NCBI RefSeq assembly: GCF_003605755.1 | Contig: NZ_RAHJ01000018.1 | Coordinates: 744,001 to 808,000, forward strand | DNA: 64,000 nucleotides | Source: Tsuneonella suprasediminis | GTDB taxonomy: Bacteria; Pseudomonadota; Alphaproteobacteria; Sphingomonadales; Sphingomonadaceae | Reading direction: 5' to 3' | Shown: positions 1,144-17,459 of the stretch, piece after piece | Numbering within the stretch: the first letter of the stretch is position 1 | Layout: every line of letters begins with the position of its first letter | Notes under the pieces: generated by a model | The model's database searches: none | What the model saw: only the letters and a program-made list of their open reading frames with translations | What the model was told of the DNA's origin: nothing | Program-made: the position numbers and the translations under genes

Positions 1144-1147
1144 CCCT

Positions 1148-2140
1148 GTGGCGGCAGACGTTCATCCTTTGCCAGCGGGAAGCGTGAGCGAGCGCAGCGT
1201 TTATCTCGATGCCTATCTCGCGCCGTTTCGCCAGTGGCTCGAACGGGATACCGTGACGGAAATCATGGTGAACCGGCCGGGCGAAGTGTGGGTGGAAGAT
1301 GCCGCGTATCCCGGAATGCAGCGGATTGAAGCGCCGGAGATCGACGATCGTCTGGTGCAACGGTTGGCCGAGCAGGTCGCCCGCGTCAGTCATCAGGGCA
1401 TCAATCGCGAACACCCGTTATTGGGTGCCACATTGCCCGATGGTGCGCGTGTGCAGTTCTGCGGACCGCCGGCCGCGCGCAAACACTGGGTCATGGCGAT
1501 CCGGCGGCATCGGCGGCTCGATCTTCCTCTCGACGCATATGATACCGGCCCGCTGATGACCGCCGAACAGGCGGCGATGCCCGATCCGCGCCAGCAGCCC
1601 ATCGCTTATCTTCGCGAGGCGATCCGCCAGCGCAAGACGATCCTGATTTCGGGCGGCACCAGCACTGGCAAAACCACCTTCCTCAACGCCATGCTGGGGG
1701 AAATCCCGCGCGATCAGCGTGTCGTGCTGGTGGAAGATACCCCTGAACTGAGGATGCCGGGCGAAAACGGTGTCGGGCTGGTCGCGGTGAAGGGCGAACT
1801 GGGTGAAGCGAAGGTAACCGCCAACGAATTGCTGCAGGCTGCGTTGCGGCTGCGCCCCGACCGCATCGTATTGGGCGAATTGCGCGGAGCGGAAAGCGTC
1901 AGCTTCCTGCGGGCAATCAATACCGGGCATCCGGGCAGTTTCTCCACCATCCACGCCAACAGTCTGGCTGGCGCGTTGGAGCAGCTTTCGCTGATGGTGA
2001 TGCAAACCGGAATCGGGCTGACCCGATCCGACACAATCGCTTATGCCGCATCGGTGATCGATGTGATCGTGCAACTGGGCCGCGATTCCAGCGGCAAACG
2101 CGGCATTACGCAGATCGCGAACAGCGCCGATATCGCCTGA
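1148..2140 (+). CDS. virB11: VirB11-family secretion ATPase
   Basis: Hexameric traffic ATPase that powers type IV secretion from the cytoplasmic face of the inner membrane. From a GTG start the protein is 330 residues, normal for VirB11. It shows an N-terminal domain, the Walker A loop GGTSTGKT (169-176), an Asp box (VEDTPEL, about 195-201), the Walker B region (GELRGAES, 243-250) and the His box (STIHANS, about 266-272). The open frame continues upstream inside virB10, but the GTG four bases after the virB10 stop is the sensible start; a second in-frame GTG at 1184 is an alternative. No further secretion gene follows, so this is the 3' end of the cluster. Confidence 0.9.
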   Translation: MAADVHPLPAGSVSERSVYLDAYLAPFRQWLERDTVTEIMVNRPGEVWVEDAAYPGMQRIEAPEIDDRLVQRLAEQVARVSHQGINREHPLLGATLPDGARVQFCGPPAARKHWVMAIRRHRRLDLPLDAYDTGPLMTAEQAAMPDPRQQPIAYLREAIRQRKTILISGGTSTGKTTFLNAMLGEIPRDQRVVLVEDTPELRMPGENGVGLVAVKGELGEAKVTANELLQAALRLRPDRIVLGELRGAESVSFLRAINTGHPGSFSTIHANSLAGALEQLSLMVMQTGIGLTRSDTIAYAASVIDVIVQLGRDSSGKRGITQIANSADIA

Positions 2141-2392
2141 CCGGTCTGCCGAAAACCGCATTCCACAATTTGATTCGTTAATGTGGTAAACCGGCCACGT
2201 CCGGGTGAATGCAGGCTTTCCGTAACGTCAACCCGATCATGCTTTCAGGTACGGAGCGCGAAATATCCGAAATCTTGCGTACCGTTTGTTCGAAACAATA
2301 AACCTTCGCTTGCACTATCGTGTGAAATTGACGTAGCTTCCGTTCCGGGAATGAGGCCATACAAAAGTGGCCCGCCAATATGGAGAGGAACT

Positions 2393-5338: not shown

Positions 5339-5365
5339 AACGGAATTCTCAGTTGGAGAGGGGAG

Positions 5366-5395
5366 AGGCCGGGCCGCAAGGTCCGGCCTTTCTTT
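5366..5395 (+). terminator. Rho-independent terminator of the TonB receptor gene
   Basis: A ten-base-pair GC stem (AGGCCGGGCC with GGTCCGGCCT, one G-U pair) around a GCAA tetraloop is followed by TTTCTTT. It begins 28 bases after the receptor stop codon. Confidence 0.85.
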
Positions 5396-5427
5396 ATCCG
5401 TTTGCCACTTGTGTCAGTGAGCTGCGA

Positions 5428-6174
5428 TCAACCTTGGGATTTGCCGAAAGGAGAAAAATCAGTGGTAGTGTCATATACATCCACCCCTTCGCGCCGCTTC
5501 AGCGTGCCGATCACCAGATAAGTAACCGGGGTTAACAAGACTTCCCACATGGTTTTGATAAACCATTGCGACACAACGACCTGCATGAGCTGTTCCGGCG
5601 GCCATCCGGCCAGCCCGTAGAACGCGAGTGGATAGAAGATCAGGCTATCCAGCCCTTGACCCACGACGGTCGAACCGATGGTGCGGCTCCACAGCTTTTT
5701 CCCACCGGTCCATACCTTCATTTTGGCGAGTACGATCGAATTGGCGAACTCGCCGGCCCAGAATGCTGCCATCGATGCCAGCACGATGCGCCACGAATTG
5801 CCGAACACGAATTCGTAAGCCTCTTGCCCCGGCCAGCCCCTCGCCGGAGGCAGGGCGACGACGACCCATGCCATGAAAGCCATGAAGGCCAGCGCCGCGA
5901 AGCCGGTCCAGATGACCCGGCGTGCACGGGCGAAGCCGTACACTTCGGTCAGCACGTCGCCGATTATATAACTGAGCGGAAAGAACAATACCCCCGCACC
6001 GAACGACCACTCGGTGCCACCTGGCAGAGTTACGAAACTGGGTTTCGCCGCACCGATGATGTTGGAGAGGAGCAGGATCGCGACGAACGCCGCCATGATA
6101 AAATCGTAATAGCGAAAATGCCGCGGTGCGACGGCATCTCCTTCGACGCGGGTGATATATTCTGCCATGCTCAC
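5428..6174 (-). CDS. yhhQ: Queuosine precursor transporter (YhhQ/VUT family)
   Basis: Inner-membrane transporter of the YhhQ family (DUF165), which imports queuosine precursors such as preQ0/preQ1 for modification of tRNA wobble position 34. The 248-residue protein has about six hydrophobic segments and family-typical stretches: LLSNIIGAAK near the first helix, LSYIIGDVLTEVYG, and GEFANSIVLAKMK. A second Met two codons in (MAEYI) is an alternative start. It is convergent with the TonB receptor and ends just past that gene's terminator. Family assignment is firm; the substrate is taken from the family. Confidence 0.85.
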   Translation of the reverse strand: MSMAEYITRVEGDAVAPRHFRYYDFIMAAFVAILLLSNIIGAAKPSFVTLPGGTEWSFGAGVLFFPLSYIIGDVLTEVYGFARARRVIWTGFAALAFMAFMAWVVVALPPARGWPGQEAYEFVFGNSWRIVLASMAAFWAGEFANSIVLAKMKVWTGGKKLWSRTIGSTVVGQGLDSLIFYPLAFYGLAGWPPEQLMQVVVSQWFIKTMWEVLLTPVTYLVIGTLKRREGVDVYDTTTDFSPFGKSQG

Positions 6175-6227
6175 GCTCTATGCCGATTTGCGCTGCGCGA
6201 AAAGCACGCTATGCGCCTCCACAGCGC

Positions 6228-6304
6228 GCGCCCGTAGTTCAACTGGATAGAGCACGAGCCTTCTAAGCTTGGAGTTGCAGGTTCGAATCCTGCCGGGCGC
6301 GCCA
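6228..6304 (+). tRNA. tRNA-Arg (anticodon TCT)
   Basis: A complete cloverleaf of 77 nt including an encoded CCA. The acceptor GCGCCCG pairs with CGGGCGC, the T arm is GCAGG-TTCGAAT-CCTGC, and the anticodon stem CGAGC/GCTTG encloses loop CTTCTAA with anticodon TCT. It lies about 215 bases left of the integrated element but is not its target. Confidence 0.95.
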
Positions 6305-6517
6305 ATTCGGATACCAAGCCATGGCACCCGTGGATCGCAGTCCTTCAAACGTCTTTACCGGGCCGTAAGGCGCCGATAATGAGGCGGATAAGTGAATCTG
6401 CCAAATTCAATATCTTTCAAGTGCGTCGCATGACGGAAGGCCGAGCGGAGCTACATCCCCCAACAAATACCCGAGTGCGGGATGTAAGAACCACTGATCG
6501 CGCGAAGTATCTGAAAG

Positions 6518-6567
6518 AGATGGTGGGCGCGACAGGGATTGAACCTGTGACCCCACCCGTGTGAAGG
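6518..6567. repeat. attL: displaced 3' part of tRNA-Val(CAC)
   Basis: A 50-base direct repeat of 17382-17431 with two mismatches (6532 A versus G; 6548 T versus C). Read on the minus strand it is the 3' half of tRNA-Val: anticodon loop, T arm, acceptor and CCA. The two mismatches pair with each other in the T stem (A-U here, G-C in the intact gene). No 5' half of a tRNA lies next to it, so it is the left junction left by site-specific integration. The gene-free stretch 6305-6723 otherwise holds only this repeat and the leader of the integrase gene. Confidence 0.9.
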
Positions 6568-6723
6568 ACCGGATACCCCTTCCGGTGGGTTTCGAGGCAT
6601 TCCTAGAAACACTAGAGTTTCTGCGACTTTACAGCTAAATCGGCTCCGGGCGGTTCCGATGTGTTCCTGCCCAAACCGGGACCCGCGCTACCCTAGTGCT
6701 ACCCCTGAAAGGAGATCGGTGGA

Positions 6724-8076
6724 ATGGCTACGGTGGCAGAGGCGCCCAAGGTAAAGGAGAAGCGGGGCCGGGAACGGCTGACCGAGAAGCGGCTCGAGGC
6801 GCTGACGGTGAAGGCGGGCACCCGGGCGGAGATCGCTGACGACATTGTGCGCGAGCTTCGCATCCGTGTGGGCAAGAGCGGCAAGAAGAGCTGGTCCATG
6901 CTTTACCGCGTCGTCCAGCCGGACGGGAAGCGCGGCGAGATGAAGCGGCTGAGCCTCGGGGCCTATCCGAAGGTGTCGCTGGCCGAGGCCCGGACGAAGG
7001 CCCGGACGGCACTCGAACAGGCGGACGATGGCATCGACCCGGCGGCCGTGAAGGAGGAGGAGGTCGAACAGCGGCAGACGCGCACCTTCGAGGCCGTGCT
7101 CGATCGCTTCGTTGAGCTGTACGCGAAGCCCAACACCAAGGACGGCCGCTGGGCGAAGGCGCAGGAGGAGCTCGCCAAGAAGCAGGCGGAGGCCGGAGCC
7201 GGACCGGATGACTCATCCGCGGCGGCAGCGAAACCGCGCAAGATCGGCCGTTGCCCAGCCGAGCGCTTGCTCGCTGACCACGTCGCTCCGAAGTGGCAAG
7301 GCCGCCTGATCGAGACCATCACCCGGGCCGAGGCGCACGAGATGCTGGACGAGGTGATCGAGGAGAGCGGCGCCTCCATCGCGCGGGAGGTCCGCAAGCA
7401 CCTGACCCGGATGTTCAACTGGGCAGCGGACCGGGGGCTGATCGCCGCCAACCCGCTCGCCGGGATGCAGCGGCCGGAGCTCGGCTACGTCTCGCGTGAG
7501 CGGGTCCTGACCGTTGAGGAGCTCGGCCAGATATGGAATGCGGCGAAGGATGCCGCCTACCCCTTCGGTGACATGGTCCGCCTATTGATCCTGACCGGTC
7601 AGCGCCGTTCCGAGATCGCTGGGCTCGAGCGCGGCTGGATCCACACCGAACAGCGCGCGGTCGAGATACCGGCCGCCAGCTACAAGACCAAGCGCCCGCA
7701 CGTGTTCCCGCTGTCCGCCCCGGCGTGGGCATTGGTCGAGGCCCTGCCCAAGTGGAACGGCGGGGACTTCCTGTTCACCACCACCAGCGGGGAGCGGCCG
7801 TTCAGCGGTTTCTCGAAGGCCAAGGCGGCCTTGGATTCAAAGATTGCCAAGAATGCGAAGAAGGCCGAGATCGAGCCGATGGAGCCGTGGACGCTGCACG
7901 ACATTCGCCGCTCGGTCGCAACGCACATGGCCCGCCTCGGCGTGGCCCAGGAACACATCGAGCGGGTCCTCGGCCATGTCGTCGCCGGTGTCGCCGGGAC
8001 GTACAACCGCTACAGCTATCTGGACGAGAAGCGCGCCGCGCTCGAGGCGTGGGGTAAGCTGTGGGTTGCAAAGTAG
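6724..8076 (+). CDS. int: P4-type tyrosine integrase
   Basis: Site-specific recombinase that inserts and excises the island at the tRNA-Val 3' end. The 450-residue protein has the N-terminal arm-binding domain of P4-like integrases (about 15-110), a core-binding region (about 120-250) and the catalytic domain with the full active-site set: Arg294 (TGQRRSEI), Lys321 or Lys323, His392-x-x-Arg395 (LHDIRRS), His418 (LGHV) and nucleophile Tyr427 (TYNRY). A GGAG at 6711-6714 sets the start. It lies 157 bases inside attL, the usual position for tRNA-targeting integrases. An insertion at about 135-180 is Ala/Lys-rich and probably a flexible linker. Confidence 0.95.
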   Translation: MATVAEAPKVKEKRGRERLTEKRLEALTVKAGTRAEIADDIVRELRIRVGKSGKKSWSMLYRVVQPDGKRGEMKRLSLGAYPKVSLAEARTKARTALEQADDGIDPAAVKEEEVEQRQTRTFEAVLDRFVELYAKPNTKDGRWAKAQEELAKKQAEAGAGPDDSSAAAAKPRKIGRCPAERLLADHVAPKWQGRLIETITRAEAHEMLDEVIEESGASIAREVRKHLTRMFNWAADRGLIAANPLAGMQRPELGYVSRERVLTVEELGQIWNAAKDAAYPFGDMVRLLILTGQRRSEIAGLERGWIHTEQRAVEIPAASYKTKRPHVFPLSAPAWALVEALPKWNGGDFLFTTTSGERPFSGFSKAKAALDSKIAKNAKKAEIEPMEPWTLHDIRRSVATHMARLGVAQEHIERVLGHVVAGVAGTYNRYSYLDEKRAALEAWGKLWVAK

Positions 8077-8105
8077 CGCAGCGCCTCACGGCTAGTAGCG
8101 GGGAT

Positions 8106-8118
8106 AAATGAATCATTT
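8106..8118. promoter_or_regulatory. Small palindrome in the alpA leader
   Basis: AAATGA-A-TCATTT is a perfect six-base palindrome around one base, in the 148-base gap between the integrase stop and alpA. It has the shape of a repressor or activator operator. No protein can be assigned to it from sequence. Confidence 0.35.
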
Positions 8119-8183
8119 CTCCCCCACACCGGGGATAGACCATTACAATTCGCTCGACCCCGATCAAATAGCGTAATTAATAG

Positions 8184-8216
8184 CTCCTCGCTTCCTTTCG
8201 TAACCGAAGCGAGGAG
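8184..8216 (+). promoter_or_regulatory. Hairpin burying the alpA ribosome-binding site
   Basis: A perfect 11-base-pair inverted repeat: CTCCTCGCTTC at 8184-8194 and GAAGCGAGGAG at 8206-8216, with an 11-base loop. The 3' arm contains the GAGGAG ribosome-binding site of alpA (8211-8216, 8 bases before its ATG). A transcript starting upstream would fold the site into the stem and block translation. No U-run follows, so it is not a normal terminator. The structure is seen; a regulatory role is inferred. Confidence 0.6.
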
Positions 8217-8224
8217 ATCGGAAC

Positions 8225-8413
8225 ATGAGTACTGACAATCAGCTCGTCCTCGACTTGCGGGGTGTAATCGAGCTGACCACCCTCTCGCAATCGACCATCT
8301 ATGCGATGGCCAAGAAGGGCGAGTTTCCCAAGCAAAGGCGCATTGGCAGCAATCGCGTCGTCTGGCTGCGGTCGGAGGTGGTCGCGTGGCTCGAGCAGAA
8401 GCTCGCCGCCTGA
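8225..8413 (+). CDS. alpA: AlpA-family DNA-binding regulator
   Basis: A 62-residue winged-helix protein of the AlpA/MerR-like excisionase group. The pattern LTTLSQSTIYAMAKKGEFPK (HTH) followed by RRIGSNRVVWLRSEVVAWLEQ (wing and closing helix) is classical for AlpA. In P4-like elements and Gram-negative phage-inducible islands, AlpA proteins activate or direct excision and can switch on the replication genes downstream. Here it stands between int and the primase-helicase pair, with the same orientation. Its ribosome-binding site lies in a hairpin, suggesting tight translational control. Confidence 0.85.
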   Translation: MSTDNQLVLDLRGVIELTTLSQSTIYAMAKKGEFPKQRRIGSNRVVWLRSEVVAWLEQKLAA

Positions 8414-8509
8414 TCGAAATCCCCGCGCCGAATGGAAAGGCCGCCCGCCTCGAAGGAGTGAGACGGACGGCCAGAGGTTCCATCGGTTGGACGAGAGGAG
8501 AGCTCATCC

Positions 8510-9175
8510 GTGGGCGATAATACTGAATCCCATGCCGGGGACGAAGGCCGGAGCGTTGAAGCCGGTCCCTTCGATGATACGCTGAATTTCCTACGTTTGA
8601 TGCGTCACGATGGTCGCTGCGTACTCTCTGCCATTTGCCCGGATGGTGGTGGCATCGAGACGCGCACCTTCGAGCTCGACGCGCCGGAGCCGATGCGCGC
8701 ATGGCTGTACAGGTGGAACGGCAAGCGCAACCTCTACTGGACGCCCAACACGGTGAAGGCAGACGCTGACCCGAACCGCAAGCCCAGCGAGGCGGACATT
8801 GAGTGGCTGGACATGCTCTTTGTCGATGCTGACCCCGGCAAGCGTCACGATTGGACCGAGGAGCGCCAGCGCATCCGCAGCGCCTTCGAGAGCTTCGACC
8901 CGCCGCCGTCCGCCATCGTGGACAGCGGCAACGGCTTTCAGGCCTTCTGGCTGCTGGTGCCGGAGGATCGGCAATTCATCGGCGGACATCCGGTCGCCAT
9001 AGCGGAGGCCAAGCTCTACAACGTCGCGCTTCGCGACAAGCTGGGCGGCGATAACTGCCAGTCGCTCGACCACCTCATGCGCCTGCCCGGGACCCGCAAC
9101 CTGCCAAACAAGAAGAAGCGCGATGCAGGCCGCGTGGAACGCGCCTCCTTGGTTGTTAAGTGGCCGACCGCATGA
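8510..9175 (+). CDS. RepB-like primase, catalytic subunit
   Basis: Predicted DNA primase domain of the archaeo-eukaryotic type (RepB_primase-like) that would start replication of the excised island. The 221-residue protein has a GTG start with GAGAGGAG nine bases upstream. Visible motifs are the metal-binding VDADP (105-109), SGNGFQAFW (139-147) and the conserved HLMRLPGTRNLPNKKK block (188-203). In many elements this domain is fused to the helicase; here the two are separate genes joined by an ATGA overlap, so the products are probably made in equal amounts and act together. Confidence 0.75.
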   Translation: MGDNTESHAGDEGRSVEAGPFDDTLNFLRLMRHDGRCVLSAICPDGGGIETRTFELDAPEPMRAWLYRWNGKRNLYWTPNTVKADADPNRKPSEADIEWLDMLFVDADPGKRHDWTEERQRIRSAFESFDPPPSAIVDSGNGFQAFWLLVPEDRQFIGGHPVAIAEAKLYNVALRDKLGGDNCQSLDHLMRLPGTRNLPNKKKRDAGRVERASLVVKWPTA

Positions 9176-10983
9176 TGTACCGACTAGCAGATTTCACGCC
9201 CGCGCCAGCCGAGAGCGCCGTTCCGGCCGCCGGACAGGGGAAGGTGCAGCTCGAGCGCGAGCCACCGCGCCTGAAGGACCTAGACGAGCTTCCCGAGCGG
9301 GTGACGCCGCGCACCCGAATGTTGATCGTGCAGGGCGATGACCCGGACGATCAGCTCAAGTACGCTTCCCGGTCTGAGGTGACTTTCGCGGTCTGCTGCG
9401 AGCTCGTCCGGGCCGGGTGCGATGATGACACCATCGCGGCTGTGTTGCTGGACCCGGACTTCGGCATCTCTGCCCACACCCGCGCACAGAAGCGGTCCCT
9501 CGAGTATGCTGCCCGGCAGATCGAACGGGCGCGGGCCGAGGCCGAGGAGCCGATGCTCGCCCGGCTGAATGCCGACCACGCCGTGATCTTGTCCTATGGC
9601 AACGCCTGCCGCGTGGTCTCGTGGCAACCGAGCGAGGTGGACCCCAATCGGCAGGAGATGGTCGTCCAGTCCTTCGCTGACTTCAAGAACCGCTACCTGA
9701 ATGTGCGGGTGCAGGTGGGCGTCACGAAGGAGAAAGCCCCGGTCTATGCCCCGGCCGGCAAGTGGTGGCTCGAGCATCCCCTCCGGCGCCAATATCGCAG
9801 CGTGGTGTTCCGACCGAACGAGGAGGTGGACGACCGGCTTGAGTACAACATCTGGCGCGGCCTCGCTGTCCAGCCGCGCGCGGGCGAATGGCCGCTGTTG
9901 CGGGAGTTGATCGAGGACGTGCTCGCTGCCGGAGATCGCGCCGGGGCCAAGTACCTCCTGAATTGGGCCGCCTATGCGGTTCAACGCCCCGAGCGGCGGG
10001 CGGAAGTGGCACTGGTCCTCCGGGGCGGCAAGGGCACCGGCAAGAGCACCTTCGGCCGCCTTATGAGCCGAATATTCGGCCAGCACGGCACGACCATCGC
10101 CAGCTCGCACACGATGACCTCCAACTTCAACAAGCCGCTGCACGATTGCTGCCTCTTGTTCGCGGACGAGGCGCTGGCGCGCGGGGAGGCGAAGGCGGAG
10201 GGGATTATCAAGAGCCTCATCACCGAGCCGAACATCATGATCGAGCCGAAGGGCGTGGACGCCTTCCCGTCGCGCAACCGGCTCAAGGTCATCATCGCAT
10301 CGAACGAGGAGTGGGTTGTCTCGGCCAGTGCGGACGAGCGGCGCTTCGCAGTGTTCGACGTGTCGCCGGATAAGGCCTTCCCGCCGGGGAGCCCGGAGAC
10401 TGACGAGCGGGTCCAGTGGTGGATCAAGTTGAACAACGAGATCGACAACGGCGGCCTCGAGGCCTTCCTGCATGATCTGTTGGCGATGGACCTCGGCAAC
10501 TGGCACCCGCGTCTGGACGTGCCGCAGACGGCCGCCCTGCGTGAACAGAAGATCAAGACCCTCCTGCCGATGCAGGAATGGCTGCTGGACGTGATCGAAG
10601 CCGGAATCATCCCCGGGCAAGCTCCGCACGGGGCCGAGCTGAACGTCCGCTCCTCGAATGAGCGGGACAGGCGTGACGGGCGGCCGGGGCCGCAGGACAC
10701 AAGCGAGAGGGACAGGCGCGACGGGTGCGCCGGACTCTATGACTTGATGCGGCAGTCCAGCCCCGCGCTTCGCAATGTATCGGAGCCGCGCCTAGGCAAA
10801 TTCTTGAAGGAATGGGGGTTCGAGAATTACAAGCACCAGCAGAAGGGCGATTGCTGGCGCGGCTGGATATTTCCGCCGCTGGCGGACCTTCGGGACCGCT
10901 GGCGCAAGGCCTTCGGCGCGTGGGCGTTCGATGAGCCGGAGGACGGCTCCCCGGCCGAGTGGGCGAACGGCGCGCCATACTGA
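9172..10983 (+). CDS. SF3-type replicative helicase (phage/plasmid primase-helicase family)
   Basis: Replicase helicase of the P4/DUF5906-like family, expected to unwind the island origin. From the ATG in the ATGA overlap the protein is 603 residues (a GTG four codons earlier is possible). An N-terminal region of unclear function (1-240) precedes the ATPase: Walker A GGKGTGKST (285-293), Walker B LLFADEA (328-334), sensor Asn377 (IIASN) and an Arg-finger-like ADERRFAVFD (387-396). Near residue 500 a short duplicated ERDRRDG segment looks like a recent tandem repeat. The cluster of iterons begins nine bases after the stop codon, as in satellites whose origin lies next to their replicase. Confidence 0.85.
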   Translation: MMYRLADFTPAPAESAVPAAGQGKVQLEREPPRLKDLDELPERVTPRTRMLIVQGDDPDDQLKYASRSEVTFAVCCELVRAGCDDDTIAAVLLDPDFGISAHTRAQKRSLEYAARQIERARAEAEEPMLARLNADHAVILSYGNACRVVSWQPSEVDPNRQEMVVQSFADFKNRYLNVRVQVGVTKEKAPVYAPAGKWWLEHPLRRQYRSVVFRPNEEVDDRLEYNIWRGLAVQPRAGEWPLLRELIEDVLAAGDRAGAKYLLNWAAYAVQRPERRAEVALVLRGGKGTGKSTFGRLMSRIFGQHGTTIASSHTMTSNFNKPLHDCCLLFADEALARGEAKAEGIIKSLITEPNIMIEPKGVDAFPSRNRLKVIIASNEEWVVSASADERRFAVFDVSPDKAFPPGSPETDERVQWWIKLNNEIDNGGLEAFLHDLLAMDLGNWHPRLDVPQTAALREQKIKTLLPMQEWLLDVIEAGIIPGQAPHGAELNVRSSNERDRRDGRPGPQDTSERDRRDGCAGLYDLMRQSSPALRNVSEPRLGKFLKEWGFENYKHQQKGDCWRGWIFPPLADLRDRWRKAFGAWAFDEPEDGSPAEWANGAPY

Positions 10984-10991
10984 CCCCGGCA

Positions 10992-11242
10992 AGACGGGTC
11001 CGCAGGCGGGTCGCAGACGGGTTCACCTCGCCCGAAACCACGCAAATTGTGGGTCGCAGACGGGTTAGACGGGTAGGCGGGTCGCGCGGCAATTCAGCGC
11101 GATAGGGAACCCAAAGGGGGGTCGGAGGCGGGCGCTTCGATTATTCCTGACCTCCTATCTAACCCGTCTAACCCGTCTAACCAGTCTTTCTCCAAGGTTT
11201 CTGCGGCTCTCCGGCAGACGGGTTTAGGCTCCGCAGACGGGT
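10992..11242. repeat. Iteron array, candidate replication origin of the island
   Basis: Eight perfect copies of AGACGGGT. Six are direct (10992, 11015, 11058, 11067, 11216, 11235) and two inverted (11162, 11171); three near-copies lie at 11004, 11075 and 11180. Two triplets with 8-9-base spacing, in opposite orientation, face each other across 79 bases (11083-11161). The whole lies in the 464-base gap directly after the helicase gene. Iterons beside a replicase gene are the hallmark of plasmid and satellite origins; the role is inferred, the repeats are seen. The rest of the gap to 11447 holds no further gene that can be supported. Confidence 0.65.
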
Positions 11243-11447
11243 CGAGCCGTCTTGTTGGGCTTATGCCTGGGCCATGTGGCCTGCCGCCTGCCGTTGTGGC
11301 CGTCTGGCCTAACGCGCGCGGGCGCGAGATCGGCGCGGCCGGAGCCGGAGCTGGCCCTATCCGAGGGCAAGGCCGCCGGATGCCGCGCCATCGTTTCCAC
11401 ATCGCCGTGCCTGCACCCCGGCCGAGGGTAGCGGCGAGGGGTAGCGG

Positions 11448-12131
11448 TCAGGCGTTCCGGGCGATGCTCTGGTCCAGCGCGGCAATCTGTTTTCTCAGTC
11501 CGTCGATTGTGCCCTGTTGGGCATCCTTGAGCGTCCGATTGGCTTTCCATGCGGCACTGACCTTGGCGCTTGCCTGCTTTGCGCCCTCGTCGGCTCTTTG
11601 GAGGACCTCGGCCCACTGGTCGTCAGTCATGGAGTAATCTTCGCCATGCTGGTCATTCCACGCAGGCCAATGCACATCGCTCAGCGTATCGGTGAGGTCC
11701 TTGAGTGCCGCCTTAAGCGCGGTCTTTGCCGCCTCCACGGGCGCGTCCTCGGTGCCTTCGAGGGTGACAAGATACCAGTCTAAGGCTCCCTGAATCATCT
11801 GCTCCACGCCATGCGCGTCATGCTCGCCTATCTCGATGGGCTCGCCTACCGGGTCGCTCGTCACCCGCTGCGCAGTCCACAGTGGTTCGTCTATCGACTT
11901 GGCGACCCGCGCGGCGCGCTCCTCGGCCTCGCGCAGACGAATGGCGAGCGTTTCCCGATGCATTATCCGGGTCTGGAGATTGCTGTCTTTCAGTTGTCGC
12001 CAAACGGGAGCTCCGGCGTACCAAGCCGCGCCGATTGCCGCTGCGCCAGTAATAAGCGTCTGGTAGTTGTAAATGAAGTTGCCCGCTGCCGCGAAGAACG
12101 CCGCAAACAGATGTGGAGCGGTAGCTACCAT
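11448..12131 (-). CDS. Hypothetical membrane-anchored coiled protein of the island
   Basis: No family recognised. The 227-residue protein starts at an ATG with GGGGGA upstream; the open frame extends further but without a ribosome-binding site. A hydrophobic stretch at about residues 8-40 (FAAFFAAAGN through GAAWYAG) predicts one or two membrane passes. The remainder is charged and helical, with a coiled-coil-like segment rich in Arg/Glu near 55-80 and another at the C-terminus. It runs against the rest of the island and is flanked on both sides by paired GGGGTAGCG motifs (11426-11446 and 12231-12252). Membrane anchoring could suit an exclusion or defence role, but that is a guess. Confidence 0.55.
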   Translation of the reverse strand: MVATAPHLFAAFFAAAGNFIYNYQTLITGAAAIGAAWYAGAPVWRQLKDSNLQTRIMHRETLAIRLREAEERAARVAKSIDEPLWTAQRVTSDPVGEPIEIGEHDAHGVEQMIQGALDWYLVTLEGTEDAPVEAAKTALKAALKDLTDTLSDVHWPAWNDQHGEDYSMTDDQWAEVLQRADEGAKQASAKVSAAWKANRTLKDAQQGTIDGLRKQIAALDQSIARNA

Positions 12132-12259
12132 CGTGATCCCCCAATGCCCCCCGGAGCCTGCCCTCTCAACGGGCCGGGCCGCCCGCCGCCGCTCCATCTT
12201 TTCCGTGACCGCCGTATGGCGGTGAGAAAGGGGGTAGCGGCACGGGGTAGCGCGCTGTC

Positions 12260-12577
12260 TTAAGCCGAAGCCTTCTTGTAGCCGATCTTCTTGAGGAATT
12301 CAGGCCAGCCATAATACCGATCGGCTCCCGGTCGGGGCTCCACGCCGTGCTTTTCGAGCGCCGCAAGTATGTCCACGTCTGGGCCGTGCTTCTCTTCGTC
12401 CGCAGTCAGCTCCATCTTAGAGAAGCCCGATGACATATACTCCCGGAAACTCACCGTGAGTAAACGATCAGGTGGGGGGTCGCGGTGGGTCCATCCAGCA
12501 AAGTCAATCTTGCTGCTACCTCGGACCCAGCCGTTCGGCGTGAGGTGCATTTCGTCAATTTCGTCACTTGCCGACAT
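12260..12577 (-). CDS. Hypothetical protein of the island
   Basis: A 105-residue acidic protein with no family I recognise and no membrane segment or signal peptide. The middle carries FREYMSSGFSKMELTADEEK and the end is WPEFLKKIGYKKASA. A GGGAGAAG element lies upstream of the ATG on the minus strand. It is oriented with the membrane protein gene to its left and divergent from the TerS-like gene, so a promoter for each direction should lie in 12578-12715. Possibly a small regulator. Confidence 0.5.
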   Translation of the reverse strand: MSASDEIDEMHLTPNGWVRGSSKIDFAGWTHRDPPPDRLLTVSFREYMSSGFSKMELTADEEKHGPDVDILAALEKHGVEPRPGADRYYGWPEFLKKIGYKKASA

Positions 12578-12715
12578 TTTGCTTGCTTCTCCCTGAGGCC
12601 GACATTGTCGACCCGAGCATTAAATGTGTGATCAGGCGCGTGATTTTCAACCTGCTGAGTTTCTCATCAACGCCCCGCCGTTCGTTCCGTTGGCCCCGCC
12701 AGCTATCGTTCGGCC

Positions 12716-13216
12716 ATGAAGCTGACCGACCGCCGCAAGAGGGCCTTTCTCAAGGAATTGGAGCTGCACGGCATTGCGACCCGGGCCGCCCGCGCCGCCA
12801 GCCCCCGCGCGTCCAGCCGGTACGGCGCAATCCAGACCTTCAAGGACGAGCGGGCGCGTGACCCCGAGTTCGCCCGACAATGGGACGAAGCGATGCAGTC
12901 GGCCGAGGCCAGCATCGAGCACGAGATTTACCGCCGCGCGCAGGAAGGCTGGGACGAGCCAATCTATGGGGGGCGTCACCGTGAGCGCATCGTCGGCACG
13001 GTCCGCAAATACAGCGACCGCCTGCTCGAGCTGCGCGCCAAGGCCCTGCTGCCCGCGTACCGTGAAATCTCGTCGGTGTCCGTCAATGGCCGCGTGACGC
13101 ACAATCTCGATGCCGGTGTCTTGGGCGATGCCGTGGCGAAGGTCGCTGTGCAGATGGCCGAAGGCCTGCGGTCGCTGCCCGCCCCGGCCCGGATGATCGA
13201 AAATGAACCGCGATAG
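12716..13216 (+). CDS. Terminase-small-subunit-like protein (orphan)
   Basis: A 166-residue protein matching the HTH terminase small subunit pattern of many tailed phages: an N-terminal helix-turn-helix (RKRAFLKELELHGIATRAAR), then DPEFARQWDEAMQSAE, EIYRRAQEGWDEPIYGG and the signature IVGTVRKYSDRLLELRAKAL. In phages TerS recognises the packaging site and directs the large subunit. No large subunit is encoded here. In staphylococcal satellites an orphan TerS diverts the helper phage's packaging machinery to the satellite genome, and that is the favoured reading. It opens a rightward gene string in which each gene overlaps or nearly touches the next. Confidence 0.65.
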   Translation: MKLTDRRKRAFLKELELHGIATRAARAASPRASSRYGAIQTFKDERARDPEFARQWDEAMQSAEASIEHEIYRRAQEGWDEPIYGGRHRERIVGTVRKYSDRLLELRAKALLPAYREISSVSVNGRVTHNLDAGVLGDAVAKVAVQMAEGLRSLPAPARMIENEPR

Positions 13217-13616
13217 AGCCCTCGATGACCTCGCCTTCATGGTGGGTTGCCAGATGATGGGGCCGGACGGCCGCCGGGCGCTTCGCATGTCGCTGTTGAT
13301 GGAGATGGGCGAGGAAGCCCCGGGCACCCCTGAGCTCGCCGTCCTGTGGCACGAGGACCGCCTGATGCGCGGGGAACGCGAGCCGGTGTCGGTCTATGAC
13401 CGCTGGGTGCTGGCGCGCGCCCGGGACGCGGCCGAGCGACCCATCTTCGATGAACACTTCTGGCGAATGCGCCGTGTTGACCTCATTCGCGCGGGCTTCG
13501 ACCGCAAGGAGGCCCGCGACGTGATCGCCGCCATCCGCCTGTCCTTGGGCCATGCGCCCGCCATCGAAAATGACGAAGGAGACGACAATGGGAATTTGGA
13601 ACAGCAAGCGGCCTGA
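13203..13616 (+). CDS. Hypothetical protein of the island, TerS operon
   Basis: A 137-residue soluble protein, no family recognised. It begins 14 bases inside the end of the TerS-like gene, so translation is coupled. It is rich in Arg and Glu and predicted mostly helical (for example LIRAGFDRKEARDVIAAIRL), with an acidic tail (ENDEGDDNGN). Position beside TerS suggests a role in packaging or in altering helper particles, but nothing in the sequence proves it. Confidence 0.6.
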   Translation: MNRDRALDDLAFMVGCQMMGPDGRRALRMSLLMEMGEEAPGTPELAVLWHEDRLMRGEREPVSVYDRWVLARARDAAERPIFDEHFWRMRRVDLIRAGFDRKEARDVIAAIRLSLGHAPAIENDEGDDNGNLEQQAA

Positions 13617-14001
13617 CGGCCCGGAGCCGGAGGCAATCGCCCAACCGGACCGCCTGAGCGAGATCGCCACCGACAAGGCCGAGGCCGCTGCCCGCTTCTC
13701 GTCCGCTATCGCCGCCGCCGGGGAGGCGATGGTCGCGCTCTTCGATGCCGACCGGGCATTCCTCGCTGAGTACCGGCGCCGCCACGGCTCGGAGGCCTAT
13801 TCGCCCTCCCGCATGATGCACCAATTTCGCGGCTCGCTGTTGGGCGAGCTCGAGCTGAATGCCCCGGACCTGCTCTCGCACCTGAATCAGCCGCGCCAGT
13901 CCCGGGCGCGGGCGGAGACGGTCGCATCGTTGATAGCCCGGCAGGTCGAGAATGACCTCTCCTCCGTGCCGCAACCTCAGCCGAAGGAACCATCACAATG
14001 A
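13588..14001 (+). CDS. Hypothetical helical protein of the island, TerS operon
   Basis: A 137-residue protein from an ATG with AAGGAG six bases upstream; the open frame has an earlier ATG at 13552 but this ribosome-binding site favours 13588. The start lies 28 bases inside the preceding gene. The centre is Ala-rich and helical (KAEAAARFSSAIAAAGEAM), with a Pro/Gln tail (SSVPQPQPKEPSQ). No family recognised. It overlaps the next gene by four bases (ATGA). Confidence 0.55.
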   Translation: MGIWNSKRPDGPEPEAIAQPDRLSEIATDKAEAAARFSSAIAAAGEAMVALFDADRAFLAEYRRRHGSEAYSPSRMMHQFRGSLLGELELNAPDLLSHLNQPRQSRARAETVASLIARQVENDLSSVPQPQPKEPSQ

Positions 14002-14372
14002 CTGTACCCAAGAAGCAAATCATCCGGTCGATGACCGTTGACGAGATTTCGACCGTGGACGTGCCCGCACAGAAGGGCGCCACCGCCGTCCTGCTCAAGA
14101 ACGGCGCCACCCCCATCCGCAAGAACGCTGCCGAAGTGGCGGCCGGGACGGCGGAGCCGCTGTATAAGGCGGCCGAGTACGGGGACGCGATGATGGCGCG
14201 CGCCGGGGAGATCGCCGTGGAGAAGGGCTGTACGCCCGGACAGGCGCTCCTCGACCACTCCGGCACCGATAGCGTGCTGATCGAGCTGGCCTGTGCCGAG
14301 CGCTCGGCCGAGATCGCCTTCCGCAAGGTCCGCACCGATGCGGTCTATGATTCGAGCCCACAGTGGAGCTGA
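13998..14372 (+). CDS. Small protein with a phage XkdF/prohead-protease-like motif
   Basis: A 124-residue protein. Its N-terminus, VDEISTVDVPAQKGATAVLL followed by Lys, resembles the stretch found in XkdF-type and other phage prohead assembly proteins (EISLVDRPANPGA...K). The remaining sequence is helical and of no recognised family. It is far too short to be a complete protease. If the resemblance is real it may be a relic or a decoy acting on helper capsid assembly, as satellite proteins such as P4 Sid or SaPI CpmB do; this is inference only. It overlaps both neighbours. Confidence 0.5.
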   Translation: MTVPKKQIIRSMTVDEISTVDVPAQKGATAVLLKNGATPIRKNAAEVAAGTAEPLYKAAEYGDAMMARAGEIAVEKGCTPGQALLDHSGTDSVLIELACAERSAEIAFRKVRTDAVYDSSPQWS

Positions 14373-14698
14373 CCCCGGAGGCGGCCCGCAACGGCTATCT
14401 CGCCCTGTTCGATGACCGGACCCGGGAGGCGCACCTGGCCGCGCTGATCGACGCCCGAATCAACGAACCGAGCCGCTGGCCCACCGTCGCAATCGTCCGC
14501 AAGATCGCACGGCTGTTCGAGGTCCCGGCGGCCGAGCTCGGTGCCTTCTTTGGGCTGTTGTGCCAGCCGGGCGCCCGGGGCGGGGTATGGGTGGACGTGA
14601 TCCGCTCGCCCGACACGGCCGAGCTGGTCTCGGTCGAGGCCCTGTCCCGGCGGCAGCTCGTCTCCTTGGGCATGATGCGGACGATGGTGGCTGGCTGA
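14363..14698 (+). CDS. Hypothetical protein of the island
   Basis: A 111-residue protein with a GTG start placed ten bases inside the end of the preceding gene. No family recognised. It is soluble and helical; the segment WPTVAIVRKIARLFEVPAAE resembles the first helices of Cro/C1-type DNA-binding domains, though too weakly to call. It ends three bases before the next small gene. Confidence 0.45.
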   Translation: MELTPEAARNGYLALFDDRTREAHLAALIDARINEPSRWPTVAIVRKIARLFEVPAAELGAFFGLLCQPGARGGVWVDVIRSPDTAELVSVEALSRRQLVSLGMMRTMVAG

Positions 14699-14701
14699 CC
14701 G

Positions 14702-14884
14702 ATGGGGTGGCCGAGCTATCTCCCGTCGCCCAACCGGCGCCGCGATGTGCACGGGGAGCCGGAGCCGATGCAGACCCGGCCGTGCCTGCGTTGCCGCAAG
14801 CCCTTCGAGAGCGAGGGCGCGCATAATCGGCTCTGCCGTCCGTGCACAAACAGGGCGGGGGAGACGAGCCCCTTTGCACTATAG
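14702..14884 (+). CDS. Small zinc-ribbon-like protein
   Basis: A 60-residue protein with two CxxC knuckles (CLRC and CRPC, 16 residues between them) forming a probable zinc ribbon. A second ATG at 14768 with GGGGAG nine bases upstream would give only the 38-residue finger, and may be the real start. Such small ribbon proteins are common in phages and satellites near regulators. Last small gene before the RloC-like ATPase. Confidence 0.5.
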   Translation: MGWPSYLPSPNRRRDVHGEPEPMQTRPCLRCRKPFESEGAHNRLCRPCTNRAGETSPFAL

Positions 14885-14954
14885 TTGAACCAATCGAGAA
14901 CAATACTGGCGAACACCTTTGACTCTCAGGTGTTTCCGAGTCAGCTATTTGTTC

Positions 14955-17294
14955 ATGTTCAGCAAGTTCGTCATTCGCAATGTGGGGGTATTGCGTGCGT
15001 TCGACACGCCGGGGTCCCCAAAGCTCTCGCAGCTCACGCTGTTCTATGGAGGGAACGGGAGGGGAAAATCGACCCTGACCTCAGTCCTCCGGGCGGCCCG
15101 GGATGGTTGCTCAAACACTGTCCTCGCTCGCCAATCTTTGGGCAATGGTGGCGCCGCGCCGGATGTCACCCTCATCGCTGACGCCGGGAATATCCGCTTC
15201 GAGAATGGCAAGTGGAAGTCAAAGAGCGCGCCAATCGAGGTGTTCGACACCACCTTCATTGCCGACAACATCTATGCGGGCGAGCTGACCGAGCTGGCCC
15301 ATGATCGCGGTCTCTTCACAGTCATCATCGGCAAGGACGGCGTGCGGCTGGCAACCCACCTCGAGCACTTCAACGAGATCAACCGCAAGACGGCTGCGGA
15401 ATTGAAGGCGGCCGAAACGGCCCTTGCCGAGGACAAGCCCGCCGACATGGGGCTGGACGAGTTCTTCGCGCTGGCGCCCAACCCCGATTACGACAAGCGC
15501 CTCGAGGATGCCGAGCGCGCTGTGAAAGCGGTCCAGCAGGCGGACAAGATCGCTGCCCTAAAGCAGCTCGAGGAGCTGCCCGTCCCCGCTCTCCCGGCCG
15601 GGATGGCCGCCGCCCTCGCTAGCACCGTCGCTGACATTGATACCTCGGCTCGGGACCGCTTGCTCGAGCACTTCACCCGCTTCCACCTCGACAAGAAGGC
15701 CGAGGAGTGGATCGGCTACGGCTTGGACCACATCCACGATGATTCCTGCCCCTTCTGTGGGCGCGAGGACGTGGATCAGGCGGGCATGGTCACGCTGTAT
15801 GGGCAAATCTTCGGGGACACCTACAAGGCCCATCTAGCGACGGTCCGGGAGCTCGGGGTCGAGGTCGATAGTGCGTTGGGCGAGGACACCCGCACCGGCC
15901 TGACTGCCAAGGTCGAGACGAATGCCGAGGCGGCCCGCAAATGGGGCGAATACGTCCGGCTGGATAAGCCACTCCCGGAGATGGCCGAGCTCGGTCCCGT
16001 GATCGCGGACGCCCACAAAGCGGCCAAGTCGCTGTGCGATAAGAAGCGCGCGTCCCCGTTGGACAAGCTCGAGGCCGAGGCGGAGCTCTCTGAGATCGCC
16101 GCCAAGATCACGGCCGCAAATGACCTCATCAATGCATACAACGAGGCCGTTGTCGCCATCAATGACGCCACTGCGAAGGTCTCGACCGCCACGCCGACCA
16201 ACTTGGCGGTCGCACAGGCGACCCGCGACAACGTGAAGAAGCGCATCGCCCGGCATGATGCGGGGGTACAGAAGCGGGTCGATGCCTACTTCCGAGCCAA
16301 GAAGCGGGACGCGCGGACGCGCAAGACCCGGACCTACATCCAGAAGAAGCTCAAGGACGTGAACGAGGCCTCGGCCGCGCAGTACCACAGCCGCGTGAAT
16401 CACTACCTCGGCCGCTTCGGCGCCAGCTTCACCATCTCGAAGATCACCAACAGTATGCAGGGCAACTCGGGCCAAGTGGACTACGGGTTGCTCATTAAGG
16501 GCGAGACCGTCGCGCGCGGACGGGGGCGGCAGGCGGACGCCATCCCCTCATTCCGCAACACGCTGTCGGCCGGGGACAAGACCACGCTCGCCTTCGCCTT
16601 CTTCCTCGCCATGCTCGACAGCGACACAGGCCTCGCCGGGAAGACAGTGGTGGTCGATGACCCGCTAAGCAGCCACGACAGCCATCGCCGGTATATGACG
16701 GTCGAGGTCATCAAGGAGCTGTGCGGCCGCTGCCGCCAGATGATCGTGCTGTCCCACGACGAGCACTTGCTCCTCGACATCGAGGCCCGTTGCGCGGGCA
16801 CCCCATGCACGGCCTTCAAGATCGACTTCGCCACCGGGGGCCAATGGTCGGAGGCCTCGGTCGTGGACTTGGACCTCCTTTGTCGGGCTCGGCACATCGA
16901 GATGATTGACGAGCTGACCGCCTACGTTGATCGGAACGAGGGCGATCATGCCAAGGTGGCCCTCACGGTGCGCCGGGTCCTCGAGACTCACTACAGGCGA
17001 TACCGGGCTTATTTCACCCCCGATCAAAACCTCGGCTCCATCGTCAAGGCGATTGCGAGCGAGGGATCGTCGCACCCCTGCCATCGGGACCTCACTCAGC
17101 TCGACCGCTGCAACAATGCGACGTGTGACGACCATCACGGCGAGAATGCCAACACGGGAAGCGCCCGCACGCTCGGCCCCGACGAGGTGAAGGTGATCGC
17201 CACCGACGCACTCGAGCTCATCGGCGCGCGGCGGCCCGCTTCGAGCTCGCATGCCTCGGCTGGGGCCGCTGCGACGGCCGCTCCTGTGTCGTGA
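14955..17294 (+). CDS. RloC-like AAA_13 ATPase, candidate anti-phage effector
   Basis: A 779-residue ABC-type ATPase of the AAA_13 group, which includes RloC and PrrC, tRNA-cleaving proteins that abort phage infection. Seen: Walker A GGNGRGKST (32-40), coiled-coil-rich middle with a zinc-hook-like CPFCG (265-269), ABC signature LSAGDK (537-542), Walker B TVVVDDPLSSHD (564-575) and switch His LSHDEH (599-604). The C-terminal domain has Arg673-x3-Glu677 followed by His707/His710, comparable to the Arg-x3-Glu...His triad of PrrC-type anticodon nucleases. Length and order fit RloC. The ATG at 14955 starts the ATPase fold; an upstream TTG is less likely. It sits at the element's right end, a usual cargo position for defence genes. 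Nuclease activity is inferred. Confidence 0.7.
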   Translation: MFSKFVIRNVGVLRAFDTPGSPKLSQLTLFYGGNGRGKSTLTSVLRAARDGCSNTVLARQSLGNGGAAPDVTLIADAGNIRFENGKWKSKSAPIEVFDTTFIADNIYAGELTELAHDRGLFTVIIGKDGVRLATHLEHFNEINRKTAAELKAAETALAEDKPADMGLDEFFALAPNPDYDKRLEDAERAVKAVQQADKIAALKQLEELPVPALPAGMAAALASTVADIDTSARDRLLEHFTRFHLDKKAEEWIGYGLDHIHDDSCPFCGREDVDQAGMVTLYGQIFGDTYKAHLATVRELGVEVDSALGEDTRTGLTAKVETNAEAARKWGEYVRLDKPLPEMAELGPVIADAHKAAKSLCDKKRASPLDKLEAEAELSEIAAKITAANDLINAYNEAVVAINDATAKVSTATPTNLAVAQATRDNVKKRIARHDAGVQKRVDAYFRAKKRDARTRKTRTYIQKKLKDVNEASAAQYHSRVNHYLGRFGASFTISKITNSMQGNSGQVDYGLLIKGETVARGRGRQADAIPSFRNTLSAGDKTTLAFAFFLAMLDSDTGLAGKTVVVDDPLSSHDSHRRYMTVEVIKELCGRCRQMIVLSHDEHLLLDIEARCAGTPCTAFKIDFATGGQWSEASVVDLDLLCRARHIEMIDELTAYVDRNEGDHAKVALTVRRVLETHYRRYRAYFTPDQNLGSIVKAIASEGSSHPCHRDLTQLDRCNNATCDDHHGENANTGSARTLGPDEVKVIATDALELIGARRPASSSHASAGAAATAAPVS

Positions 17295-17302
17295 AATCTC
17301 GA

Positions 17303-17327
17303 GGGGTAGCGAGAGATACGCTACCCC
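17303..17327 (+). terminator. Inverted GGGGTAGCG repeat after the RloC-like gene
   Basis: GGGGTAGCG at 17303-17311 and CGCTACCCC at 17319-17327 form a perfect nine-base-pair hairpin with a seven-base loop, nine bases after the stop codon. No U-run follows, so termination is uncertain. The same nonamer recurs elsewhere in the island and may instead be a protein-binding site. Confidence 0.4.
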
Positions 17328-17381
17328 GAGAATACCCCGGTGTGGAATGGTGGGACCATCTTTCCAGCTAAGTGCCTGAAA

Positions 17382-17431
17382 AGATGGTGGGCGCGGCAGG
17401 GATTGAACCTGCGACCCCACCCGTGTGAAGG
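17382..17431. repeat. attR: element-supplied 3' part of tRNA-Val(CAC)
   Basis: Right-hand copy of the 50-base repeat at 6518-6567 (two mismatches). It completes the tRNA-Val gene, so integration restored a functional tRNA. The longest identical run between the copies (17413-17431) covers the anticodon loop, the usual crossover site for integrases of this type. Confidence 0.9.
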
Positions 17432-17459
17432 GTGTGCTCTACCGCTGAGCTACGCGCCC
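17385..17459 (-). tRNA. tRNA-Val (anticodon CAC), island integration target
   Basis: A 75-nt cloverleaf with encoded CCA. The acceptor GGGCGCG pairs with CGCGCCC, the anticodon stem CACCC/GGGTG holds loop TTCACAC with anticodon CAC, and the T arm is GCAGG-TTCAATC-CCTGC. The 5' half is host DNA and the 3' half is attR of the island. Confidence 0.95.

Follow-up and report, generated by a model that had tools for sequence, protein, structure and literature searches.

A probable phage satellite of the PICI type in a sphingomonad

Judged from its genes and their layout, an island of 10.86 kb in the Tsuneonella suprasediminis genome very probably belongs to the phage satellites of Gram-negative PICI type. 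It lies in the window (the whole stretch of DNA analysed, 64 kb) and runs from a displaced tRNA-Val(CAC) 3' end (6515-6567) to an intact tRNA gene (17385-17459). The preliminary description of this DNA had proposed a PICI-type island, and the gene order, the origin with two iteron sets 3' of the helicase, the TerS and the tRNA att site match what the available part of PMC6092414 describes. The features of the island are listed below.

6515..6567, no strand: attL, the displaced 3' end of the resident tRNA-Val (53-nt repeat, 94%; T-stem ACAGG/CCTGT)
6724..8076, plus strand: tyrosine integrase, 450 aa (PF00589 1.1e-18, PF13356 4.6e-18 and PF22022, all above cut-off)
8225..8413, plus strand: AlpA-type regulator/excisionase, 62 aa (PF05930 6.1e-14; phrog_2790 2.8e-15)
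8510..9175, plus strand: primase domain protein, 221 aa (phrog_10514 2.8e-7)
9160..10983, plus strand: SF3-type helicase/replication initiator, 607 aa (PF19263 3.5e-23; phrog_1156 1.5e-50)
10992..11242, no strand: probable replication origin, eight AGACGGGT iterons in two blocks of four (8-mer counts)
11448..12197, minus strand: leftward ORF, 249 aa (relative in L012, 75%)
12260..12577, minus strand: leftward ORF, 105 aa, between origin and terS
12677..12705, plus strand: 29-bp conserved DNA element, 10 nt before terS (present in 11 of 13 copies)
12716..13216, plus strand: TerS, terminase small subunit, 166 aa (phrog_4044 2.6e-30)
13203..13616, plus strand: X1, 137 aa, all-helical (57-80% identical in 10 other loci)
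13552..14001, plus strand: X2, 149 aa (23-82% identity to the window among related loci)
13998..14372, plus strand: X3, 124 aa (65-85% in 9 other islands; phrog_24785 1.3e-5)
14363..14698, plus strand: X4, 111 aa (42-85% in 10 other loci)
14702..14884, plus strand: X5, 60 aa, CxxC-CxxC zinc-ribbon-like peptide (66-80% identity among related loci)
14919..17294, plus strand: cargo, AAA_13 ATPase, 791 aa, candidate defence protein (PF13166 7.8e-37; PADLOC PDC-S06 1.7e-57)
17379..17431, no strand: attR, the island-borne 3' half of the functional tRNA-Val (repeat and T-stem comparison)
17385..17459, minus strand: intact tRNA-Val(CAC), the integration site (tRNA gene)

The integrase, AlpA, primase and SF3 helicase named in the preliminary description were all recovered with profiles. 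The helicase family, PF19263, is DUF5906; VapE-like and TIGR01613 (P4-family primase C-terminus) matches lay below their cut-offs. The primase is the weakest assignment among the island genes, with PF16793 below cut-off (8e-4) beside the PHROG match. In L006, L010, L012, L015, L021 and L022 primase and helicase are fused into single frames of 794-843 aa. The gene string had been called compact and rightward, which is correct for the backbone and not for the whole island, because the two ORFs between origin and terS are on the minus strand; in some relatives the cargo is leftward too. No Pfam, PHROG or NCBIfam match was obtained for the longer of these ORFs, and the shorter had neither an NCBIfam match nor a relative among the 11 related loci.

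Integration at the 3' end of tRNA-Val

The junction repeats at tRNA-Val were seen in the preliminary description, and only their left start had to be moved, from 6518 to 6515; they are 53 nt long, 94% identical and spaced by 10,864 nt. The T-stem in attL is the one found in the tRNA-Val genes of 10 of 11 relatives. The functional tRNA-Val at the island now carries GCAGG/CCTGC, a compensated pair, indicating that the island supplied its own tRNA 3' half and displaced the original. On this comparison of repeats and stems, the island is evidently integrated at the tRNA-Val 3' end by its own class of integrase, with the 3' half of the tRNA replaced. The tRNA-Val islands L011, L012, L022 and L023 end in GCAAG/CTTGC.

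The eleventh relative, G326, has a tRNA with GCAAG/CTTGC and an adjoining fragment of a related integrase. This fragment (L096, 485-919) is 54% identical to the window's integrase and adjoins tRNA-Val; the genome is of the same genus, and the sppA next to the site is 97% identical. The fragment is likely the remnant of an earlier island. The sppA-tRNA-Val neighbourhood is conserved in 12 of 20 loci. No clean empty site occurred among the 11 relatives' stretches examined, and attB could not be demonstrated as uninterrupted because the flank opposite sppA differed in all 11. At the same chromosomal site, G347 (L105, about 950-10,550) has two tRNA-Val copies that enclose a different element of ~9.5 kb, whose integrase (26%) and helicase (23%) are only distantly related; the terS-X block was not found in it.

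A family of related islands

Searches with TerS identified five loci in named genomes and one viral contig; of the 397 genomes of the family, six gave matches, among them the host itself, with two copies, and one repeat of L013. Related loci with TerS number 11 (L006, L010-L015 and L021-L024), from Sphingomonadales genomes and metagenome contigs, and TerS identity to the window across them is 76-95%. L013 lies in Sandaracinobacter neustonicus (G163) and L012 in Qipengyuania proteolytica (G570), both of the same family as the host. The preliminary description had suggested a search for the int-alpA-primase-helicase-TerS order at tRNA-Val; the family found with TerS is located at tRNA-Val and also at tRNA-Arg(CCG) and tRNA-Gly. 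As far as the contigs reach, the order int-alpA-primase/helicase-origin-terS-X1..X5-cargo is fixed in all 11. X1-X5 follow TerS in 10 of them, the contig of L015 ending within terS; in L014 the TerS match begins only at residue 38. A second island of the same family, L006, is present in the host's own genome (contig C13, about 365,360-376,010, at tRNA-Arg(CCG)), and differs from the window island in integrase class, origin class and cargo, which is restriction-modification.

The att-to-att lengths are 10,864 (window), 10,605, 10,633, 10,392, 10,668, 10,196 and 10,148 bp, so that seven of nine measured integrated copies fall within 10.1-10.9 kb. The outliers are G227 (16,899 bp), in which a type III restriction system separates the origin from terS, and G547 (7,801 bp), a divergent shortened copy with TerS at 58% and X1 at 39%. 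Only fragments of X2-X5 are left in G133 and G005. In L013 the repeat is weak (20 nt, 90%) and the tRNA 5' half abnormal. The first 141 bases of the metagenome contig L010 (10,920 bp) recur exactly at its end, which gives 10,779 bp if circular, and a single attP, a tRNA-Gly end of 54 nt that G547 has in identical form, lies between cargo and integrase. L010 may thus resemble an excised island form; tandem copies or a concatemer would be equally able to give the overlap. It was binned with a Tepidisphaera MAG, a label that fits no sphingomonad host and is probably wrong.

The integrase class tracks the tRNA: Val in the window, L012, L013, L022 and L023 (five integrases 59-91% identical, the same range separating the window's from the others), Arg-CCG in L006 and L021 (77-81%), and Gly in L010 and G227 (62%). 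Integrases of different tRNA classes are 35-43% alike. The helicases fall into the clades window/L021 (88%), L006/L015/L024 (82-90%) and L013/L022 (74%), with all other pairs at or below 53%.

A probable replication origin of constant layout

AGACGGGT occurs nine times in the 64 kb against 1.27 expected, and none of 100 shuffles reached nine. Eight of the nine copies lie directly 3' of the helicase stop, at 10992-11242, where the preliminary description had placed iterons. An over-represented 8-mer was found just 3' of the helicase in 9 of 10 islands tested (300 simulations each, its count being reached in 0 to 1.3%); behind the helicase of L023 no iterons were found. The 8-mer goes with the helicase clade: AGACGGGT in the window and L021, AGTCGGA(T) in L006, L015 and L024, GGGGAACG in L013 and L022, GTCCGGGT in L010, and GTCGGT(TA) in L012. 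The positions are alike in all nine islands, with blocks at about 1-100 nt and about 170-265 nt from the helicase stop; L012 has four copies as the full 8-mer and eight as a 6-mer, and L010 has seven copies inside the span and one at 501. Hence the two-block layout is preserved while the iteron sequence changes with the helicase, as would be expected of initiator-iteron pairs. AT enrichment at the window origin is modest, the best 25-mer in the iteron span having 0.60 AT against 0.34 for the region, and this AT-richest 25-mer of the window lies inside the second iteron block, not cleanly between the blocks.

TerS and the DNA element before terS

The TerS had been described as an orphan, and this was borne out: the scanned island ORFs include no large terminase. 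TerS has relatives in 84 of 50,697 phage records. Among 396 genomes of the order, the TerS profile matched 153 with E <= 1e-5, many in frames of 300-500 aa, while strong matches (E < 1e-60) were only four (G000, G227, G570 and G547). Five weaker matches were fetched, and TerL and portal genes were confirmed beside one of them (L070). In viral contigs TerS alone retrieved one relative and the TerS profile ten, nine of these at 31-39% identity. A third, weak match in the host's own genome (C10:25041, E 5e-6, a 443-aa frame) was set aside as not phage, since the ORFs around it look like housekeeping genes.

When the 300 bp before terS were aligned for 11 copies, conservation was confined to the last ~55 bp. 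In 11 of 13 copies, 10 nt separate the core of the conserved element, GCCGTTCGYT-N11-GCCAGCTA, from the ATG that follows; the core is missing from L014, where the terS start is absent, and from G547. Its middle occurs in two versions, CCGTTGGC or GCCAACGG, which resemble each other's reverse complements. Conservation continues into the gene: over terS codons 2-9, third positions of identical residues are 95% identical, compared with a mean of 66.5% and 84% for the next highest stretch of codons. The exact pattern occurs at seven places in the 397 family genomes, each time before an island terS, and in a single viral contig, already among the known loci. Five further places with one mismatch in the 397 genomes were taken as chance because a reversed control pattern gave similar scattered matches.

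The element is a candidate for either a pac/cos-like site or a late promoter/operator, both of which would fit. A packaging site is slightly preferred because conservation extends into terS. Single-strand folding of the region upstream of terS gave no signal, and scans for promoters and terminators did not exceed chance.

The X1-X5 block

X1 was modelled with six helices (predicted, pLDDT 83.5), and its fold search returned no match with E <= 0.001. The model of X3 is of low confidence (pLDDT 55.9), the first 50 residues being unstructured and followed by helices. In a 12-row alignment of X5 the first three Cys are present in 12 or 11 of the 12 rows. X1 and X2 had no phage match, the X1 and X3 profiles, each represented by two short patterns, found nothing in viral contigs, and PDB profile searches gave no usable match.

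Rhizobium phage RHph_Y60 encodes a 363-aa protein whose residues 3-40 match residues 4-41 of X3 at 45% identity (hhalign: 38 columns, probability 92.5). The phage protein is a member of phrog_24785, a family without assigned function matched, among the matches listed, by 9 of the 83 non-backbone ORFs scanned. Its gene lies two genes before the annotated major capsid protein, the head family of which was confirmed, and directly 3' of a gene annotated methyltransferase/prohead protease, only the methyltransferase part of which is supported by profile. The N-terminal peptide common to X3 and a phage protein near a capsid gene is a hint at capsid hijacking. A scaffold role for X3 is proposed from this gene position.

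A tentative model, which we think possible although less probable than not, brings these elements together. According to it, terS-X1-X2-X3-X4-X5 and the upstream DNA element would form an undescribed packaging/capsid-hijack cassette, fixed in all members of an alphaproteobacterial satellite family while integrase, origin and defence cargo swap; X3 would be a scaffold mimic that joins a short helical body to a recognition peptide taken from the N-terminus of the helper's scaffold, and would steer helper capsid protein into small particles for about 10.5 kb.

Putative defence cargo beside attR

The cargo occupies a single variable slot beside attR and varies among islands, being restriction-modification in most and a reverse transcriptase in one. 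We found an Eco57I-type methyltransferase with a PLD-domain protein in L006, an N6/N4 methylase in L010, a C5 methylase with an HNH protein in L013, and a C5 methylase, NaeI and Vsr in L021. L023 has a methyltransferase-domain protein, with Abi_C located before terS, and L024 has a type III restriction system and an M78-peptidase/HTH plus SEC-C pair. The reverse transcriptase of L012 (13046-13987), accompanied by an HTH gene, is possibly a retron or other defence RT. Judging from their families, the cargo genes would protect the host from phages.

Cargo recurs between islands: L014 has the methylase and NaeI of L021 at 96% and 86%, and L011 the L006 pair at 88% and 83%. The pair in L022 is that of L013 at 99% identity, with integrases 84% and helicases 74% alike, which points to recent exchange of cargo or recombination between islands.

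Virion genes and a possible helper

Nine complete islands or forms were scanned (window, L006, the L010 circle, L012, L013, L021, L022, L023 and G227). Pfam was run on 10 window proteins and 18 proteins of relatives, and PHROGs on 83 non-backbone ORFs, of which the best 25 of 62 matched families were considered; for 33 ORFs still unassigned, all families matched in PHROGs and Pfam (16 and 9) were inspected. Among the window's island ORFs that were scanned, Pfam, PHROG and NCBIfam showed none with a match to large terminase, portal, capsid, tail or lysis families, in agreement with the earlier statement that virion genes are missing. The preliminary description had held that terminase, portal or capsid genes in full-length relatives would speak for a prophage remnant; none was found in the nine islands or forms, and none of the best 25 of 62 PHROG families is structural.

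In the window's genome PF03354 had no match, and PF05065 and PF03237 led to a single cluster (L075, contig C21, 246-252 kb) with the only HK97-type capsid and Terminase_6N genes found, which looks like a gene transfer agent (GTA). The region of this cluster held no recognisable relative of the island TerS, and the host genome no recognisable helper.

We infer induction, a helper and packaging of the island. A helper phage would enter or be induced, AlpA would turn the island on, and the integrase would excise a circle. The helicase would bind its iterons and start island replication, and the satellite TerS, at a site on the island (perhaps the element before terS), would direct the helper's large terminase to island DNA. 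X1-X5 may act on capsid assembly or on the late genes of the helper, adapting or diverting them. Particles made by the helper would then deliver the island to new cells, where the cargo would shield the host from other phages.

Other readings of the island

It is very unlikely that the region is a degenerate prophage in which the late genes have gone while the integrase, the replication genes and terS remain. A TerS in a phage family, the peptide X3 has in common with a phage head-region protein and the truncated copies G547, G133 and G005 would all suit such an origin. Yet the same minimal set recurs with intact frames while TerS differs by up to 24% and three tRNA targets are used, the origin layout and the terS-upstream element are maintained, and no fuller version with virion genes was met among the related loci. 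The alignments suggest purifying selection on all of terS-X5. The preliminary description had also argued from intact frames against a dying prophage. In L021 integrase and X2 are each split in two frames, and in L011 X3 is split, so some copies may be decaying.

An iteron origin with a primase-helicase is also known in plasmids. Together with the circular form of L010 it could indicate an integrative mobilizable or plasmid-like element that spreads by conjugation and has terS as a passenger, which we consider very unlikely. Pfam scans of 28 island proteins and the 33 unassigned ORFs found no relaxase, whose conservation in relatives had been named beforehand as counter-evidence to a satellite; the terS-X block had no relative in 72,556 plasmid records at the DNA level; and no part of the islands is more constant than TerS and X1-X5. 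A small chance is left for a satellite carried by gene-transfer-agent particles or by a GTA-like phage, and not by an ordinary temperate helper, given that the only HK97-type capsid and Terminase_6N genes found in the host form one GTA-like cluster and that the weak TerS homologue in L070 is next to TerL and portal genes of the same kind. Against this, the island TerS resembles these at no more than 35-40% across 65-122 residues, the host cluster's region lacks a recognisable TerS relative, and known GTAs carry smaller DNA. The satellite of PICI type is the reading we retain.

Comparison with known satellites

P4-like satellites have an AlpA-like regulator, a P4-family primase/helicase, iterons, tRNA integration and defence cargo, as well as Psu, Sid and Delta genes. 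The island shares the former features; unlike P4 it has a TerS, and the Psu, Sid and Delta families were unmatched in the Pfam, PHROG and NCBIfam scans. A contrast between P4-like satellites and PICIs is drawn in PMC6092414. Capsid-forming cfPICIs have their own capsid and packaging genes, whereas the island scans revealed no capsid genes.

The preliminary description knew of no well-described member in Sphingomonadales, and we likewise found no description of PICI-type satellites in Alphaproteobacteria or Sphingomonadales in the searchable literature, outside which most subscription papers lie; earlier automated detection is possible. The available part of PMC11389934 names the SatelliteFinder study and the VEIME and tycheposon papers.

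PICMIs, as the available text of PMC10803314 presents them, are small and have AlpA, an integrase, replication genes and defence cargo, all of which the island shares. They integrate next to fis and have three core proteins and no capsid-remodelling genes, whereas the island targets tRNA genes and has a larger conserved core including terS-X1..X5. PLE and its TcaP set the precedent of a satellite-encoded scaffold that gives small capsids (PMC10945586, in the portion available); the role proposed for X3 is likened to it by description alone, and the island differs by carrying replication genes and a TerS of its own. It is possible that X1-X5 conceal a second origin of capsid redirection.

The closest likeness in layout is to the Gram-negative PICIs EcCICFT073 and PmCI172, for which the accessible part of PMC6092414 gives an integrase, AlpA, a replication module, accessory genes and, in some, terS. 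The island has the integrase, AlpA, primase-rep and TerS as well, together with an att site in a tRNA gene and accessory genes placed at its far end. The origin of these PICIs directly follows rep and has an AT-rich region with an iteron set on either side; the probable origin in the window directly follows the helicase, its eight iterons grouped four and four. The PICIs lack structural and lytic genes, none of which turned up in the island scans. They use private att sites unused by prophages; the att sites of the island family are in tRNA genes, and G347 has its other element at the same tRNA-Val. Family-exclusive genes are a likeness, X1 and X2 being without phage match. In the same source these PICIs measure around 12-15 kb, are transcribed rightward and are all in Gammaproteobacteria. 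Here the size is 10-11 kb, the 12-15 kb being a typical value and not an exclusion rule, the host is alphaproteobacterial, and X1-X5 have no counterpart in the libraries searched. The island would extend PICI-type satellites to Alphaproteobacteria and give sphingomonad phage biology a satellite family to look for. Several of its parts lend themselves to testing: the block of five conserved genes, the possible packaging site, the origins and initiators that are exchanged as pairs at fixed geometry, and the site of defence-gene swaps.
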